DNA of 64,000 bases from Prauserella isguenensis (GTDB lineage: Bacteria; Actinomycetota; Actinomycetes; Mycobacteriales; Pseudonocardiaceae), in the NCBI RefSeq assembly GCF_014191605.1, contig NZ_JACHWU010000004.1, positions 372,001 through 436,000 of the forward strand, read 5' to 3'. This document shows positions 4,721 to 61,012 of the stretch, piece by piece. Below the pieces are notes generated by a model. It was not told where the DNA came from, did not search any database, and worked only from the letters and a program-made list of their open reading frames with translations. A program made the translations under genes and the position numbers. Position 1 is the stretch's first letter. Every line of letters begins with the position of its first letter.

Positions 4721-7402
4721 GTGACGGAGAACGCGAACCAGCAGCACACGGACCTTCCCACCGCCTGGAACCCGGCCGACGAAGAGGCCGTCCTGTACCA
4801 GCGCTGGGTAGATGCGGGCTACTTCACGGCCGACGCGTCGTCTGACAAGCCGCCGTTCTCCATCGTACTGCCGCCGCCGAACGTCACCGGCACGCTGCAC
4901 ATGGGCCACGCCCTGAACCACACGCTCATGGACGCGATGAGCCGGCGCCGCCGCATGCAGGGCTACGAGGTGCTGTGGCTGCCGGGAATGGACCACGCGG
5001 GTATCGCCACGCAGAACGTCGTCGAGCGTGAACTCGCGAAGGAAGGCGCCTCGCGCCACGACCTCGGCCGCGAGAATTTCGTCGAGCGTGTCTGGGAGTG
5101 GAAGAACGAGTACGGGGGCAAGATCCTCGGCCAGATGAAGCGGCTCGGCGAGAGCATCGACTGGTCCCGTGAGCGCTTCACGATGGACGAGGGCCTCTCG
5201 CGTGCCGTGCAGACCATGTTCAAGCGCCTCTACGACGAGGGGCTGATCTATCAGGCCGAGCGCATCATCAACTGGTGTCCGCGGTGCATGACAGCACTGT
5301 CGGACATCGAGGTCGACCACTCCGACGACGACGGCGAGCTGGTGTCGATCCGCTACGGCGAGGGTGACGCGTCGGTCGTCGTCGCCACGACGCGTGCGGA
5401 GACGATGCTCGGTGACACGGCCGTCGCGGTGCATCCGGAGGACGAGCGGTACCGGCACCTCGTCGGCACCGAGGTCGAGCTGCCGCTCACCGGACGGCGC
5501 ATCCCGATCGTGGCCGACGAGCACGTCGACCCCGAGTTCGGCACCGGCGCGGTGAAGGTGACACCGGCGCACGACCCGAACGACTTCGAGATCGGCAGGC
5601 GCCACGGCCTGCCGATGCCGTCGATCATGGACGAGCGGGCGGTGATCACCGCGTCCGGTCCGTTCGAGGGCATGGACCGGTTCGAGGCCCGTCCCGCGAT
5701 CGTGGCGGCCCTGCGGGAGGACGGCCGGATCGTCGCGGAGAAGCGGCCGTACGTGCACGCCGTCGGACACTGTTCGCGCTGCGACACGGTCGTCGAGCCG
5801 CGGCTGTCGCTGCAGTGGTGGGTCAAGGTCGGCCCGCTCGCCCAGGCCGCGGGTGACGCGGTGCGCGACGGCCGGGTGCAGATCCATCCGCCGGAGCTGG
5901 CGAAGCGCTACTTCGACTGGGTCGACAACATGCACGACTGGACGATCTCCCGCCAACTGTGGTGGGGGCACCGGATCCCGGTCTGGTACGGCCCGAACGG
6001 CGAGAAGGTCTGCGTCGGCCCGGACGACCAGCCGCCGTCGGGCGAGGGGTGGTATCAGGACTCCGACGTGCTCGACACGTGGTTCTCTTCGGGCCTGTGG
6101 CCGTTCTCCACGATGGGCTGGCCGGACGACACCGCGGACCTGGCGAAGTTCTATCCGACGACGGTGCTGTCCACCGGCTACGACATCCTGTTCTTCTGGG
6201 TCGTGCGGATGATGATGTTCGGCCTCCACGGGATGGGGCAGCGCGGCGCCGAACAGTCCGTGCCGTTCCAGCACATCTACCTGCACGGGCTGATCCGCGA
6301 TCAGCACGGCAAGAAGATGTCGAAGTCGAAGGGCAACGTCCTCGACCCGATCGACTGGATGGACAACTACGGCGCCGACGCCACGCGCTTCACTCTGGCG
6401 CGCGGTGCCAACCCGGGGACTGATCTGGCGCTGGCCGAGGACTGGGCCGCCGGGTCGCGCAACTTCTGCACGAAGCTGTGGAACGCGGCGCGGTTCGCGA
6501 TCATGAACGGCGCGACGACCGCGCGCCCGCTCCCGGCGGTCGAGGACATGACCGAGGCGGATCGCTGGATCCTGGGCCGCCTGTCCACGGTGCTGTCCGA
6601 AGTGGACGAGCTGCTGGAGGAGTTCCAGTTCGCCAAGGCCACGAACCTGCTCTACCACTTCACGTGGGGCGAGCTGTGCGACTGGTACATCGAGCTGGCC
6701 AAGGTGCAGCTGTCCGGGGAGAAGGCCGACGACACCCGGGCCGTCCTCGGACACGCGCTGGACACGGTGCTGCGGTTGCTGCACCCGTTCGTCCCGTTCG
6801 TGACCGAACGCCTGTGGACGACGTTGACCGGCAGTGGGGGTGCCCCCACCAATGAGGGCGTAGCCGGTGGGGGAGCTTCGCTGGTCGTGGCCGAGTGGCC
6901 GAAGGGCGACCTGCTGCCCGCCGCCGATCCGGCCGCGGAGGGCCGGATCGAGGATGTGCAGAAGCTTGTCACCGAGGTGCGCCGATTCCGTTCCGATCAG
7001 GGCCTCAAGCCGGGGCAGAAGGTCGCGACCCGACTGTCCGGGCCCGGTTTCGACGCTGTCGCGGCGCACGAGGAAGCGGTGCGGTCGCTGGCGAAGCTGA
7101 CCGAGCCCGGCGACGAGTTCACGGCCACGGCGTCGATCGAAGTCGTGCTCGCCGGTGGCACCGCGGTGGTCGAGGTCGACACGTCGGGCACCATCGACGT
7201 CGCGGCCGAGCGCAAGCGGCTCGAGAAAGACCTGGCGGCGGCCGAGAAGGAGCTCAAGCAGACCGAGGGCAAACTGGGCAACCAGTCGTTCCTCGACAAG
7301 GCGCCCGCCGACGTGGTCGACAAGATCCGCGTGCGCCGTGACACGGCAGCCGCCGACATCGAACGCATCACCGCGCGGCTGGAGTCGTTGCCCGCCTCCT
7401 GA
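4721..7402 (+). CDS. valS: Valyl-tRNA synthetase
   Basis: 893-residue class I aminoacyl-tRNA synthetase that charges tRNA-Val. The HIGH motif appears as HMGH at about residues 60-63 ([15 protein letters not shown]) and KMSKS at about 532-536. The N-terminus ([19 protein letters not shown]), a central editing domain and a C-terminal coiled-coil arm (about residues 825-890) are all present, and the length fits the family. It starts at GTG after a short gap. Odd feature: residues about 705-719 ([13 protein letters not shown]), in the anticodon-binding region, are encoded by a 43-bp element that recurs in the fadE26-like gene and looks like an in-frame insertion. Confidence 0.97.
6833..6875 (+). 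repeat. 43-bp dispersed element inside valS, in frame
   Basis: The element opens with the inverted repeat GTGGGGG-TG-CCCCCAC (6834-6849), continues CCAATGAGGGCGTAGCCGG and ends GTGGGGGAG. It is read as [14 protein letters not shown] homologous 43-bp unit, tandemly extended, lies at 37875-37980 in another coding gene, in the same frame and orientation relative to coding. Confidence 0.85.
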
Positions 7403-36804: not shown

Positions 36805-38094
36805 TCAGCGGGTGACGGGCAGGCCGAGTGCGGTCGAACCGATGATGTCGCGCTGGATCTCGTTGGTGCCGCCGCCGAAAGTGAGGATCAGTGCCGACCG
36901 GTGTGCCCGTTCGATGCGTCCCTGCAGCAGCGCACCCGGTGAGCCCTCGCGGACGAGCCCACCCGCACCGAGGACCTCGAGCAGCAGCCGATAGGCGTCC
37001 GTGGCCAGCTCCGTGCCGAACACCTTGGTCGCCGAGGCGTCCGCGGGCGCGACCGCGCCGGTGTCGGCAGTGGAGGCGATCTTCCAGTTGCGGAGCTTGA
37101 GATAGTCGGCGTGGGCGTGCACCCGCGCCAGGTGCGTGCGCACCCAGGCCTGGTCGATGACGCGGCTGCCGTCGGCGCGCTTGCTCTCGCGCGCCCACGT
37201 CAGCACCTCGGACAGTGCCGCCAGCAGCGGCGCCGCGGAGGTGAGCGCGACCCGTTCGTGGTTGAGCTGGTTGGTGATCAGCGGCCAGCCCGCGTTCTCC
37301 TCGGCGATCCGCGCGGAGACGGGCACCCTCACGTCCGAGTAGTAGGTCGCGCTCGTGCCCGGGCCCGCGACGGTGTGGACCTTCGTCCACGAGAACCCCT
37401 CCGCCGAGGTCGGCACCGTGAACACGCTGATCCCCTTGTGGCGTTTCGCATCCGGATCGGTTCGCGCGGCCAGCCACACGTAGTCGGCGTACTCGATGAG
37501 ACTGGTCCACATCTTCTGGCCGTTGACGACGTACTCGTCACCGTCCCGGACCGCCCGCGTGCGCAGCGCGGCCAGGTCGGTGCCCGCGTCGGGCTCGGAA
37601 TAGCCGATGGCGAAGTGGAGCCGACCGCCCGCGATCCGCGGCAGGAAGTACTCCTTCTGCTCGGGCGTGCCGAACCGCATGATGGTCGGGCCGATGGTGT
37701 TGATCGTCAGGAACGGCACCGGCACACCCGCCCTCGCGGCCTCGTCGGTGAAGATCAGCTGGTCCAGCATCGACCGGGCCTGCCCGCCGTACTCCTCCGG
37801 CCAGCCGAGCGCCAGCCAGCCGTCCTCGCCGAGCCTGCGCACGATCTCCTTGTACGCGCCGCCGTCGCCGTACTCTCCCCCGCCGGCTACGCCCCCACTG
37901 GCGGGGGGACCCCCATTCCCGCCGGCTACGCCCCCACTGGCGGGGGGACCCCCATTCCCGCCGGCTACGCCCTCATTGGCGGCGTCACGGTCGGTGCGGA
38001 GCCCGTCACGCAGCTCCGGCGTCATCAGCGTGGCGAAGTACGCGCGCAGCTCCTCGCGGAGCCGTTCGTGCTCCGGTGCGTACGCGATCCGCAT
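36805..38094 (-). CDS. Acyl-CoA dehydrogenase, FadE26-like, with in-frame repeat insertion
   Basis: 429 residues aligning from memory with mycobacterial FadE26: MRIAYAPEHERLREELRAYF, GWLALGWPEEYGGQARSMLD, YSEPDAGTDLAALRTRA, NHERVALTS and FGGGTNEIQRDIIG. It is the FAD-binding partner of the FadE27-like protein and desaturates side-chain acyl-CoAs. Unusual: residues about 37-75, between LRTDRD and GEYGDG, are a repeat (ANEGVAGGN, GGPPASGGVAGG twice) encoded by the same dispersed element found in valS; FadE26 runs straight across this point. It is first gene of the fadE26-fadE27-fadD17 unit, behind a perfect KstR-type box at 38213-38226. Confidence 0.92.
   Translation of the reverse strand: MRIAYAPEHERLREELRAYFATLMTPELRDGLRTDRDAANEGVAGGNGGPPASGGVAGGNGGPPASGGVAGGGEYGDGGAYKEIVRRLGEDGWLALGWPEEYGGQARSMLDQLIFTDEAARAGVPVPFLTINTIGPTIMRFGTPEQKEYFLPRIAGGRLHFAIGYSEPDAGTDLAALRTRAVRDGDEYVVNGQKMWTSLIEYADYVWLAARTDPDAKRHKGISVFTVPTSAEGFSWTKVHTVAGPGTSATYYSDVRVPVSARIAEENAGWPLITNQLNHERVALTSAAPLLAALSEVLTWARESKRADGSRVIDQAWVRTHLARVHAHADYLKLRNWKIASTADTGAVAPADASATKVFGTELATDAYRLLLEVLGAGGLVREGSPGALLQGRIERAHRSALILTFGGGTNEIQRDIIGSTALGLPVTR
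37875..37980 (-). repeat. Dispersed element, tandemly extended, inside the fadE26-like gene
   Basis: A 43-bp unit (37875-37917) homologous to that in valS is followed by a 39-bp copy (37918-37956) and a 24-bp partial copy (37957-37980). The 39-bp period equals 13 residues and keeps the frame. On the coding strand CCAATGAGGGCGTAGCCGG is identical to valS 6849-6867. Confidence 0.9.
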
Positions 38095-52337: not shown

Positions 52338-53140
52338 CCCGGCGGAGCGTGTTCGGCACGGCTCCCGGTGTGAAGCCGTCCGGGAAGTGCGCCGAGGTCG
52401 ACGAGGGGGCCGACGGCACGGTGGACGAGGACCCCGTGCACGGGGACAACGTGCACGGGGACAACGTGCACGGGGACAACGTGCACGAGGACAGCGTGCA
52501 CGAGGACACGGCGGCCGGCGGCCTGGACGACGCAGGCGATCCGGACGACCCGGTCGACACCGACGACCCGAGTGGCACCGGCGCCCCGGGTGGCACTGCC
52601 GACCCGGGAGACGATGCGACCCCGGACCGGCGGCGCAGATCGGGGAGCCGGAGGGCGACGGTGCTCGCGGTGCTGGCCGCACTGTGCGTCGTGGCCGTGG
52701 CCGGCGCGATCTGGCTGGGTGTGCAGGCGGGGGGAGCGGTATCGGACGACGTGGCTCACGTCGACGGGACGCGGACGCGGCAGGTGACCGAACAGATCGG
52801 GTCAGCCGTCACGGCCGTGTTCTCGTACGATCGCGGCGACCTGGCGCGTACCGAGCGGGCGGCCGACCGGATGCTGACCGGAGCGGCGCGCCGGGAGTAC
52901 GACGCCACGTTCGCCAGGCTCCGTGAGCAGGCGGACGGATCCGGCGCGGTGCAGTCGACGACGGTCCGGTCGGTCGGCGTGCGCAGCCTGGAGGGCGACC
53001 GTGCGGAGCTGCTCGTGCTGGCCGATCGCCGTGTTCTCGACCAGGACATGCGCTCGCGCGGTTCGCACGCGGTGTGGATCGACGTCGTGGCGGTGCACAC
53101 CGACGGAGGCTGGCGGATCGCCGAGATGTCCCCGATGTGA
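52334..53140 (+). CDS. Mce-associated membrane protein (Mam4B-like) with repeat N-terminus
   Basis: 268 residues from GTG 52334 (GTGA overlap). A cytosolic acidic N-terminus contains five VHxD(N/S/T) pentads (about residues 35-59), then a Pro/Asp/Gly-rich stretch, an RRRRSGSRR patch, one membrane helix (VLAVLAALCVVAVAGAIWLG, about 113-132) and an exported domain ending GGWRIAEMSPM. The helix plus domain layout matches Mam proteins. The pentad repeat is unusual. Confidence 0.82.
   Translation: MTRRSVFGTAPGVKPSGKCAEVDEGADGTVDEDPVHGDNVHGDNVHGDNVHEDSVHEDTAAGGLDDAGDPDDPVDTDDPSGTGAPGGTADPGDDATPDRRRRSGSRRATVLAVLAALCVVAVAGAIWLGVQAGGAVSDDVAHVDGTRTRQVTEQIGSAVTAVFSYDRGDLARTERAADRMLTGAARREYDATFARLREQADGSGAVQSTTVRSVGVRSLEGDRAELLVLADRRVLDQDMRSRGSHAVWIDVVAVHTDGGWRIAEMSPM
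52436..52510 (+). repeat. 15-bp coding repeat, five copies
   Basis: GTGCACGGGGACAAC occurs three times followed by two variants (GTGCACGAGGACAGC, GTGCACGAGGACACG), encoding VHGDN x3, VHEDS and VHEDT in the Mce-associated protein. Confidence 0.9.
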
Positions 53141-59117: not shown

Positions 59118-61012
59118 CGGGCGGGCAGGCGGGTGCACCGGGGTCGCGCGGCGGCGCCGCGGTGGAGGAGTTCGACGTCGTCGTGGTCGGCAGCGGCGCC
59201 GCCGGGCTGACCGCGGCGTTGCGGGCCGCGCACCTCGGGCTGTCGACCGTGGTGCTCGAGAAGGCCGCCGCGTTCGGCGGCTCCACGGCCCGTTCCGGTG
59301 GCGGCGTGTGGGTTCCCGGCAACGACGCGCTCCGGCGAGCCGGTGTGCCGGACACGCCGGAGACCGCGCGCGAGTACCTGCACGCCATCGTGGGCGATGC
59401 GGCCGAACCGGAACGGATCGACGCCTACCTGGAACACGGCCCGGACGTGTTGTCGTTCGTGGAGCGGACCACGCCGCTGCGGCTGCGCTGGGTGCGCGGC
59501 TACTCCGACTACTACCCCGAGGCCCCCGGCGGCAAGGCGGTCGGCCGCTCCGCCGAGCCGAAACCCGTCGACGCCCGGCTGCTGGGAGAGGACCGCGACA
59601 GGCTCGAACCTCCGTACAGCGCGCCGCCGCTCGGCGTACCGCTCGGGCAGGCGGACTACCGGTGGCTGAGCCTGATCGCGCGTCACCCGCGGGGGCTGCT
59701 GACGTTGCTGAGCCTCGGTCTGCGCTGGCTGGGAGGGCTACTGCTGGGCAAACGGCAGCTCGTCATGGGCCAGGCGATCGCCGCGGCGTTGCAGGTCGGC
59801 GTCCGCCGGGCCGGCGTCGAGGTGCGGCTGAACAGTCCGCTGCTGCGTCTCGAGAGCGACGGGGCCCGGGTCACCGGCGTCGTGGTGGGCCGGGACGGCG
59901 ACGAGGCGGTGGTGCGCGCCCGCCACGGCGTGGTGCTGGCCGCGGGCGGATTCGAACACAACGCCGCGATGCGGGAACGTCACCAGCGCGCGCCGATCGG
60001 TACGGAATGGACGGTCGGTGCGAAGGCCAACACCGGCGACGCCATCGCCGCGGCGACGGCGGTGGGCGCCGCGGTCGACCTGATGGACGACGCCTGGTGG
60101 GGTCCGTCGATCCCGCTGCCGGGCGGACCGTGGTTCGCGCTGGCGGAACGGTCCCGGCCGGGCAGTATCATGGTGAACGAGCGCGGCGAACGGTTCGTCA
60201 ACGAGTCGGCCCCCTATGTCGACGCCGTGCACGCGATGTACGGCGGGGATCAGGGCCGCGGCGACGGGCCCGGCGAAAACATCCCGACCTGGCTGGTGTT
60301 CGACCAGCGGTACCGCAACCGGTACATGTTCACCGGGCTCGGGCCCCGCCAGCCCCTGCCGGGGCGCTGGTACAAGCACGGCATCGTGGTGCAGGCGCCG
60401 TCGGTCGGCGAACTGGCCGAGAAGATGGGCGTACCGGCCGCGGCGCTGGAGTCCACAGTGGAACGCTTCAACGGGTACGCCAGGGCGGGCGAGGACGCCG
60501 AGTTCGGCCGTGGCCGCAGCCGCTACGACCACTACTACGGCGACCCGCGGAACCGGCCCAATCCGAGCCTCGGCGAGCTGAACCGCGCCCCGTTCTACGC
60601 CGTGAAGATGGTGCCCGGGGACCTCGGCACGAAGGGCGGCGTGCGCACGGACACGCGGGCGCGGGTGCTGCGCGAGGACGAATCGGTGATCGACGGGCTC
60701 TACGCGGCGGGCAACACCAGCGCCGCCGTCATGGGCCGCACCTACGCGGGACCCGGCGCGACGATCGGCCCGGCGATGGTCTTCGGGTATCTGGCCGCCG
60801 AGGACCTGGCCGCGGCCGGTACCGCTGTGTCCGGCACCGTGGGCGGCTCGGACGTGGTGGACGAATCGGGCGGCGCAACTGAAACGGGCGGCGTAAGTGA
60901 TGCGGGCGGCGTAAACGAATCGGGCGGCCTGAGTGAATCGGGCGCTGTGGTCGAATCCGGCACGTCGGGCGGCGGTGGTTCGCACGACGCGAGCGCCGAG
61001 GGCGCGGCGTAA
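59114..61012 (+). CDS. 3-ketosteroid Delta1-dehydrogenase-like flavoprotein
   Basis: 632 residues from GTG 59114 (GTGA overlap). KstD signatures are strong: GSGAAGLTAALRAAHLGLST, FGGSTARSGGGVWVPGND, GYSDYYPEAPGGKAVGRS (first active-site Tyr region), GERFVNESAPYVD (second Tyr), and TYAGPGATIGPAMVFGYLAA (third Tyr and oxyanion Gly). The enzyme introduces the C1-C2 double bond in ring A of 3-ketosteroids, a key step of ring opening. It carries an added C-terminal tail of 6-residue repeats (about 584-616). The context with mce4, Hsd4A and FadE26/27 supports steroid breakdown. Confidence 0.88.
   Translation: MTGGQAGAPGSRGGAAVEEFDVVVVGSGAAGLTAALRAAHLGLSTVVLEKAAAFGGSTARSGGGVWVPGNDALRRAGVPDTPETAREYLHAIVGDAAEPERIDAYLEHGPDVLSFVERTTPLRLRWVRGYSDYYPEAPGGKAVGRSAEPKPVDARLLGEDRDRLEPPYSAPPLGVPLGQADYRWLSLIARHPRGLLTLLSLGLRWLGGLLLGKRQLVMGQAIAAALQVGVRRAGVEVRLNSPLLRLESDGARVTGVVVGRDGDEAVVRARHGVVLAAGGFEHNAAMRERHQRAPIGTEWTVGAKANTGDAIAAATAVGAAVDLMDDAWWGPSIPLPGGPWFALAERSRPGSIMVNERGERFVNESAPYVDAVHAMYGGDQGRGDGPGENIPTWLVFDQRYRNRYMFTGLGPRQPLPGRWYKHGIVVQAPSVGELAEKMGVPAAALESTVERFNGYARAGEDAEFGRGRSRYDHYYGDPRNRPNPSLGELNRAPFYAVKMVPGDLGTKGGVRTDTRARVLREDESVIDGLYAAGNTSAAVMGRTYAGPGATIGPAMVFGYLAAEDLAAAGTAVSGTVGGSDVVDESGGATETGGVSDAGGVNESGGLSESGAVVESGTSGGGGSHDASAEGAA
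60863..60961 (+). repeat. 18-bp coding repeat in the tail of the KstD-like gene
   Basis: Five and a half 18-bp units encode ESGGAT, ETGGVS, DAGGVN, ESGGLS, ESGAVV, ESG. Codons such as GAA, ACT, GTA and AAC make the stretch less GC-rich than its surroundings. Confidence 0.9.

Follow-up and report, generated by a model that had tools for sequence, protein, structure and literature searches.

A palindromic unit of 39 bp, found in two genes of Prauserella isguenensis and in many copies in other genomes, is probably a non-autonomous mobile element that survives within genes as an open frame for a flexible, glycine-rich loop. The stretch analysed here (the window) comprises 64,000 nucleotides. In the searchable literature, palindromes that are read as protein are known from Rickettsia and Wolbachia as well as from an archaeon and other bacteria. 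The present unit is short; named, cultured species offer clean filled and clean empty sites for it, and it occupies one turn in many paralogous enzymes. Both the way in which such units move and their neutrality thus become directly open to test. It also shows a route by which essential enzymes may gain ready-made flexible loops.

The element and its copies in the window

The valS gene (4721..7402, plus strand) encodes a valyl-tRNA synthetase (ValS) of 893 amino acids, recognised by Pfam profiles and by an NCBIfam model above its cut-off. The element lies within it at 6833..6874 (plus strand) as a 42-mer of 14 codons, AGT GGG GGT GCC CCC ACC AAT GAG GGC GTA GCC GGT GGG GGA, with a net gain of 39 bp relative to empty orthologues. 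An initial sequence-only reading had proposed an in-frame unit of 43 bp at 6833-6875; both unit and frame stand, with the length corrected to 42 bp. The valS gene appears to be single copy in its own genome, the runner-up match scoring 63 bits, and the product carrying the insert should therefore be functional.

The element consensus is approximately ARTGGGGGYRCCCCCRCCARTGRGGGCGTAGCCGGYGGGGGA, in which two palindromes overlap. The opening inverted repeat noticed in the sequence-only reading, GTGGGGG-TG-CCCCCAC, is present (GTGGGGGTGCCCCCAC, 6834..6849, plus strand) and conserved, and shows no covariation. It is the second palindrome (CCCCCACC...GGTGGGGG) that covaries: in valS it forms a 3′ hairpin at 6843..6873 (plus strand), with a stem pairing 6843-6850 with 6866-6873, an inner stem pairing 6857-6859 with 6863-6865, and the triplet GTA in the apical loop. 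A GTGGGGG direct repeat at 6834..6840 (plus strand) has its partner at 6867-6873.

The second locus is an acyl-CoA dehydrogenase gene (36805..38094, minus strand) with a product of 429 amino acids, again recognised by Pfam profiles. Here the units form a tandem array of three with a 39-bp period, spanning 37876-37997 on the minus strand: copy 1 at 37953..37997, with a good right part and an unrecognisable left arm, copy 2 at 37915..37956, and copy 3, an intact 42-mer, at 37876..37917 (all minus strand). The 19-bp core described earlier as common to both genes is exact at 6849-6867 (plus) and 37961-37979 (minus); two further tandem copies in the dehydrogenase had been missed, and their cores, with 2 mismatches each, follow in 39-bp steps at 37922-37940 and 37883-37901 on the minus strand. 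Among 100 shuffles, 0.00 occurrences of the core at up to 3 mismatches were expected in the window by chance. All units of the window share one reading frame, and strand and frame relative to coding are the same in both genes, as had been observed. The window also holds two other tandem repeats, a 15-bp CGTGCACGGGGACAA x 4.9 and an 18-bp GAATCGGGCGGCGTAAAT x 4.6, at 52421-52508 and 60863-60961.

Own-genome search, ValS alignment and a genic count had all been proposed at the outset. Within the own genome, 4.95 Mb in 15 contigs, the valS and dehydrogenase loci hold the only intact copies found; three other pattern hits (L005-L007, with 3 mismatches) do not rise above the reversed control, which gave 2+3 hits. 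A covariance model, with 150 of 6236 first-look candidates scored, added three weaker places, which are decayed copies (L067, L068, L069) at positions hit elsewhere; two of them, at 1500-1545 of L068 and of L069 (C2:804053-804097 and C5:219196-219240), have E-values of 0.07 and 0.99. The genes concerned are an oxidase of GMC type, a second AMP-ligase, hit at the turn that precedes GWMWTGD, and a gene resembling a mutase, the site of which a Pseudonocardiales MAG has filled (L080). Apart from ValS and the window dehydrogenase, genes are named here from motifs and not from profile searches. Decayed copies that score weakly at recurrent turns suggest that the family probably has many unrecognised remnants.

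Filled and empty sites at shared turns

ValS was matched in 41/41 genomes and 30 ValS loci were read. The insert is intact at four (own genome, G003, G006 and G001), degraded at one (G002) and missing from 25, 15 of which were compared codon by codon. In three additional MAGs, all of the Haloechinothrix clade, the insert occupies that same codon; H. halophila lacks it, though it adjoins a carrier MAG in the ValS tree. In that tree the two carrier clades stay apart, with the insert at one codon.

Filled and empty pairs from relatives follow a common pattern, in which 14 codons replace one codon of an X-Gly turn (D-G, N-G or G-G), mostly with a net gain of 39 bp. This gain is seen in ValS, EF-Ts, GMC oxidase, AMP ligase and three acyl-CoA dehydrogenases; off-size pairs are L203 (+36) and the ValS of P. 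alba (+42). In EF-Ts, for example, GAC GGC GGC ACG becomes GAC [42] GGC ACC, and in the AMP ligase CGG AAC GGC TGG becomes CGC [42] GGC TGG. No clean target-site duplication was seen in these pairs, and a parental insertion sequence was looked for as Y1 only. When aligned to solved structures, the ValS insert falls at a gap against 1gax (T. thermophilus ValRS), and the dehydrogenase insert at a 13-residue gap against 3oib and 3r7k. Compared across orthologues, these genes show the element to be inserted and not ancestral: it is dispersed, in frame and lacking from many of them. Its patchy presence could partly reflect loss plus recombination, and movement is read from the sequences.

The same turns are hit repeatedly. 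Clustering by flanks sorted 69 sense sites into 32 clusters, 22 of them with one site. Eleven sites fall at one turn of acyl-CoA dehydrogenases (R-D-G^D-Y-V-x-N-G-x-K), in eight groups (three pairs of 78-91% identity and five singles) with 29-52% identity between groups. Seven lie in ValS and six in AMP ligases at E-V/T-F^G-W-F/L-x-T-G-D, with two more ligases in a mixed cluster, and one ABC-type ATPase accounts for four C-terminal sites. In the nearest relatives with an empty site, the codons there are mostly GAC, GAT, AAC or GGC, then GGN; exceptions include ValS in G007 and G013, GMC oxidase at L217 and L219, and PGK at L239 and L244. Unrelated low-complexity inserts occupy the same turns in other Prauserella (L283, L229 and L241, for example TDATDTTDSTDVTD, and TDATDT... 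in L283), which favours tolerance of the turn.

Distribution and conservation as nucleic acid

Of the two outcomes that would have told against the sequence-only reading, neither was seen: most ValS loci lack the inserted residues, and beyond these two loci many other copies exist in other genomes. A scan of 84,980 species genomes with a 25-base pattern found 52 stretches, all in Actinomycetota as judged by record titles, the carriers being Prauserella, Saccharomonospora, Haloechinothrix, Amycolatopsis and Streptomyces, together with MAGs of Actinophytocola, Pseudonocardiales, Jatrophihabitans and Thermoleophilia. In a survey of Pseudonocardiaceae, 25/249 genomes, the own genome included, matched at up to 3 mismatches; the reversed control gave one hit each in 8 genomes, so some single weak hits in the family are chance. 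Six weak hits without a left arm (L122-L124, L131, L132 and L145) were set aside as probable chance matches. Among Streptomyces, 16/246 genomes matched at up to 2 mismatches (control, 2), and at that threshold none of 295 genomes of the class other than the own genome did. Positive genomes hold 1 to 10 matches in the family survey, and Streptomyces sp. CNH099 (G273) holds 24.

Shorter forms and arrays of the element exist as well. Tandem arrays with internal slippage units of 39, 18 and 15 bp were seen at L186, L081, L107 and L085, in Streptomyces CNH099, S. phytophilus and MP131-18. A sub-family (L178, L181, L200 and L312) has a flipped stem pair (CCCCCGGC...GCCGGGGG) and encodes peptides such as PPGNEGVAAGGG. 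No Rfam family matched the window at gathering scores. An exact scan of viral contigs gave 0 stretches, phage records held no match to the element, and plasmid records held a single 20-base match (E 1); no vehicle for the element was thus found.

Across 89 distinct 42-mers, 97.5% of the cells in stem columns 11-18/34-41 and 25-27/31-33 are paired. The rows were chosen by a pattern that contains the stem, which biases pairing itself, so the informative part is the double changes, found at two pairs only. Pair 16-36 is GC in 57 units, GU in 26 and AU in 6, with no A-C, and pair 17-35 flips from CG to GC in 5 of 89. The 5′ GGGGG/CCCCC palindrome was rejected as the covarying structure, there being no covariation in it. 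Hairpin stability was likewise not accepted as proof of structure: the hairpin does not clearly surpass dinucleotide-shuffled versions of itself, with z-scores of -1.58, +0.53 and -0.68. Several codons of the element are rare in window genes (GTA, 2.7% of Val; AAT, 5.7% of Asn; AGT, 4.4% of Ser), and the loop part GGGCGTAGCC, which includes the rare GTA, is near-invariant in the 89 pattern-picked copies, drawn from several families. The rare codons, together with the covariation at two stem pairs, show that the element is conserved at the level of nucleic acid.

Genic bias, likely mechanism and rival explanations

One hundred distinct sites were assembled, and their flanks classed by a codon score trained on 29 window ORFs; the 80 sites with up to 2 mismatches were counted, including the weak hit L122, and the 20 with 3 mismatches excluded. 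In 61 the element is read on the sense strand and in the expected frame (by both flanks in 48, by the downstream flank only in 7, and in 6 by the upstream flank, with the downstream flank in another frame or none), 11 are antisense on both flanks, and 8 are otherwise (2 A/N, 1 N/N, 3 S2/N and 2 S1/S0). Mixed flank classes were seen at L196, L186 and L091. Intergenic copies are few: only 1/80 is non-coding on both flanks, and even loose counting reaches no more than 6/80. Among 20 new sites in a second set, 15 are sense, 5 are wholly or partly antisense, and 0 are intergenic. Two copies in the draft genome of Saccharomonospora sp. CUA-673 (L015, inside the 80-site count, and L020, outside it) lack one base within a run of C and have lost the frame, which may reflect sequencing errors or a real frameshift.

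The excess of sense over antisense sites, 61:11, has P about 1.5e-9 against an even split. Of the 89 distinct units, 50 have one open frame on the sense strand, 33 have two and 6 have three, whereas the antisense strand is open in all three frames in 85/89. Stop codons alone should therefore favour antisense copies, yet sense dominates. Against an assumed intergenic share of 12%, 3/80 gives P 0.01, and 6/80, with the S2/N sites counted, P 0.14. A stronger point than these P values is that purifying selection should leave an intergenic excess, and none is seen.

Among known systems, the palindromic elements of Rickettsia (RPE) are closest in description, as the sequence-only reading had suggested. 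RPE are dispersed palindromes lying in frame in unrelated conserved genes, and have been seen as selfish and near-neutral (PMC10969869, PMC2229807, PMC3733652). With them, and with similar Wolbachia elements, the present unit shares being dispersed, multi-copy and palindromic, and in frame in unrelated conserved genes, most of whose orthologues lack it. RPE are about 150 bp long with nearly half inside ORFs (PMC10969869), and intergenic copies are common; the present unit, compared by description, is 39 bp, GC-rich, found in Actinomycetota only, overwhelmingly genic and recurrent at homologous turns. The likeness thus holds as one of analogy, and we claim membership of neither RPE nor REP. Coding palindromes of Rickettsia, Wolbachia and M. 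jannaschii, PARCELs, intragenic REPs and ORF-fused MITEs have all been described (PMC10969869, PMC2996958, PMC3733652, PMC2229807). PARCELs are also palindromic coding repeats spread horizontally (PMC2996958), but form amphipathic repeat domains of membrane-targeted proteins, whereas the present unit encodes a short loop in housekeeping enzymes. The MITEs of enterobacteria, Yersinia and Neisseria are likewise small non-autonomous units fused in frame to ORFs, but measure 107-168 bp (PMC2229807); for the present unit neither a parental insertion sequence (sought as Y1 only) nor a clear duplication was found. No earlier report of the element was found in the searchable, non-subscription literature; a search on its letters brought up papers that, going by their titles, seem to concern other matters. 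The nearest actinobacterial case there, in the accessible text, is a single PARCEL gene in Arthrobacter chlorophenolicus (PMC2996958); PMC3733652 and PMC10969869 contain zero mentions of Streptomyces or Actinobacteria.

We saw no agreed mover for Rickettsia-type palindromes in the searchable literature. For the present element, a hairpin of single-stranded DNA or RNA would be copied into new sites by an enzyme acting in trans. Insertions that break the frame or hit structured protein would be purged, leaving copies at tolerant turns, and survival in enzymes is apparently due to translation as a harmless glycine-rich loop. The scarcity of intergenic copies is not predicted by neutral random insertion and counts against this best explanation, as do the failure to find a transposase or a clear target-site duplication, the unexceptional stability of the hairpin, and the out-of-frame and mixed-flank sites. 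A candidate for the enzyme is a RAYT (Y1) transposase, the element then being a GTAG-type REP; these are hairpins of 20-40 bp that contain GTAG and occur in tandem arrays, and intragenic REPs have been described (PMC3733652). Size and hairpin fit, but REPs are mainly extragenic and the present copies genic, and in the monomer GTAG is part of the apical loop instead of the hairpin foot, a foot position being possible in tandem copies only. Y1_Tnp was found in 5/18 carriers against 4/14 others, some of them drafts that may miss genes, and not in the 24-copy genome G273. We rejected Y1 as a resident mover, as it was not found in 13/18 carriers, and regard mobilisation of this kind as very unlikely.

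For the recurrent sites, the main rival to transposition is recombination between homologous genes, in which the insert and short flanks would move between species by horizontal transfer and between paralogues by ectopic gene conversion. It would explain the repeated hits on homologous turns, the recurrence within dehydrogenases, ValS and AMP ligases, and the filling of ValS at the same codon in two clades. As an overall account it seems unlikely to us, given that ValS rows lie in their own clades, that the codons adjoining the inserts differ by eye between dehydrogenases, that the eight dehydrogenase groups are so divergent, and that most clusters hold one site. That the insert is selected, as a regulatory mRNA hairpin or as a loop from which the enzyme benefits (under salt, for instance), would fit the predominance of genic, sense copies and the several carriers that we take, from their names, to be halophiles. 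Its presence is nevertheless patchy among sister species, with decay and losses, the host enzymes are unrelated, and there are Streptomyces carriers, which are not known to be halophiles; this reading has little in its favour overall and we give it slightly less credence than the REP one. Convergent slippage of low-complexity Gly/Pro/Ala sequence in tolerant loops, with no mobile unit, is highly improbable: unrelated repeats at the same turns (L283, L229) and the visible internal slippage would agree with it, but the near-invariant loop part and the lack of matches across the rest of the class would not.

A bolder possibility is that the unit is directed into coding DNA, on the sense strand and at X-Gly turn codons, by transcription- or RNA-linked copying, and carries a built-in excision that leaves a two-glycine scar. 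Exceptions to the target rule, and an intergenic deficit that weakens if mixed sites are counted, led us to lower our estimate, and we now think it quite unlikely; if true, translated sequence would define the target of a mobile element.

Under the preferred reading of a mobile unit tolerated at turns, loss would occur by deletion between the GTGGGGG direct repeats, the proposed slippage ends, leaving a Gly-Gly scar. The junction GGG GGA occurs at 11/63 empty orthologous sites against 3/165 Gly-Gly pairs in window genes (Fisher P 6e-5, from a hand count uncorrected for kinship among the 63, some of which are not Gly-Gly); the same excess could arise from a GGGGGA target present beforehand. A candidate scar is seen in PGK (L277), which is filled in P. 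salsuginis, whereas P. alba reads AGTGGGGGA, TCC AGT GGG GGA GTC, an exact fusion of the two GTGGGGG arms.
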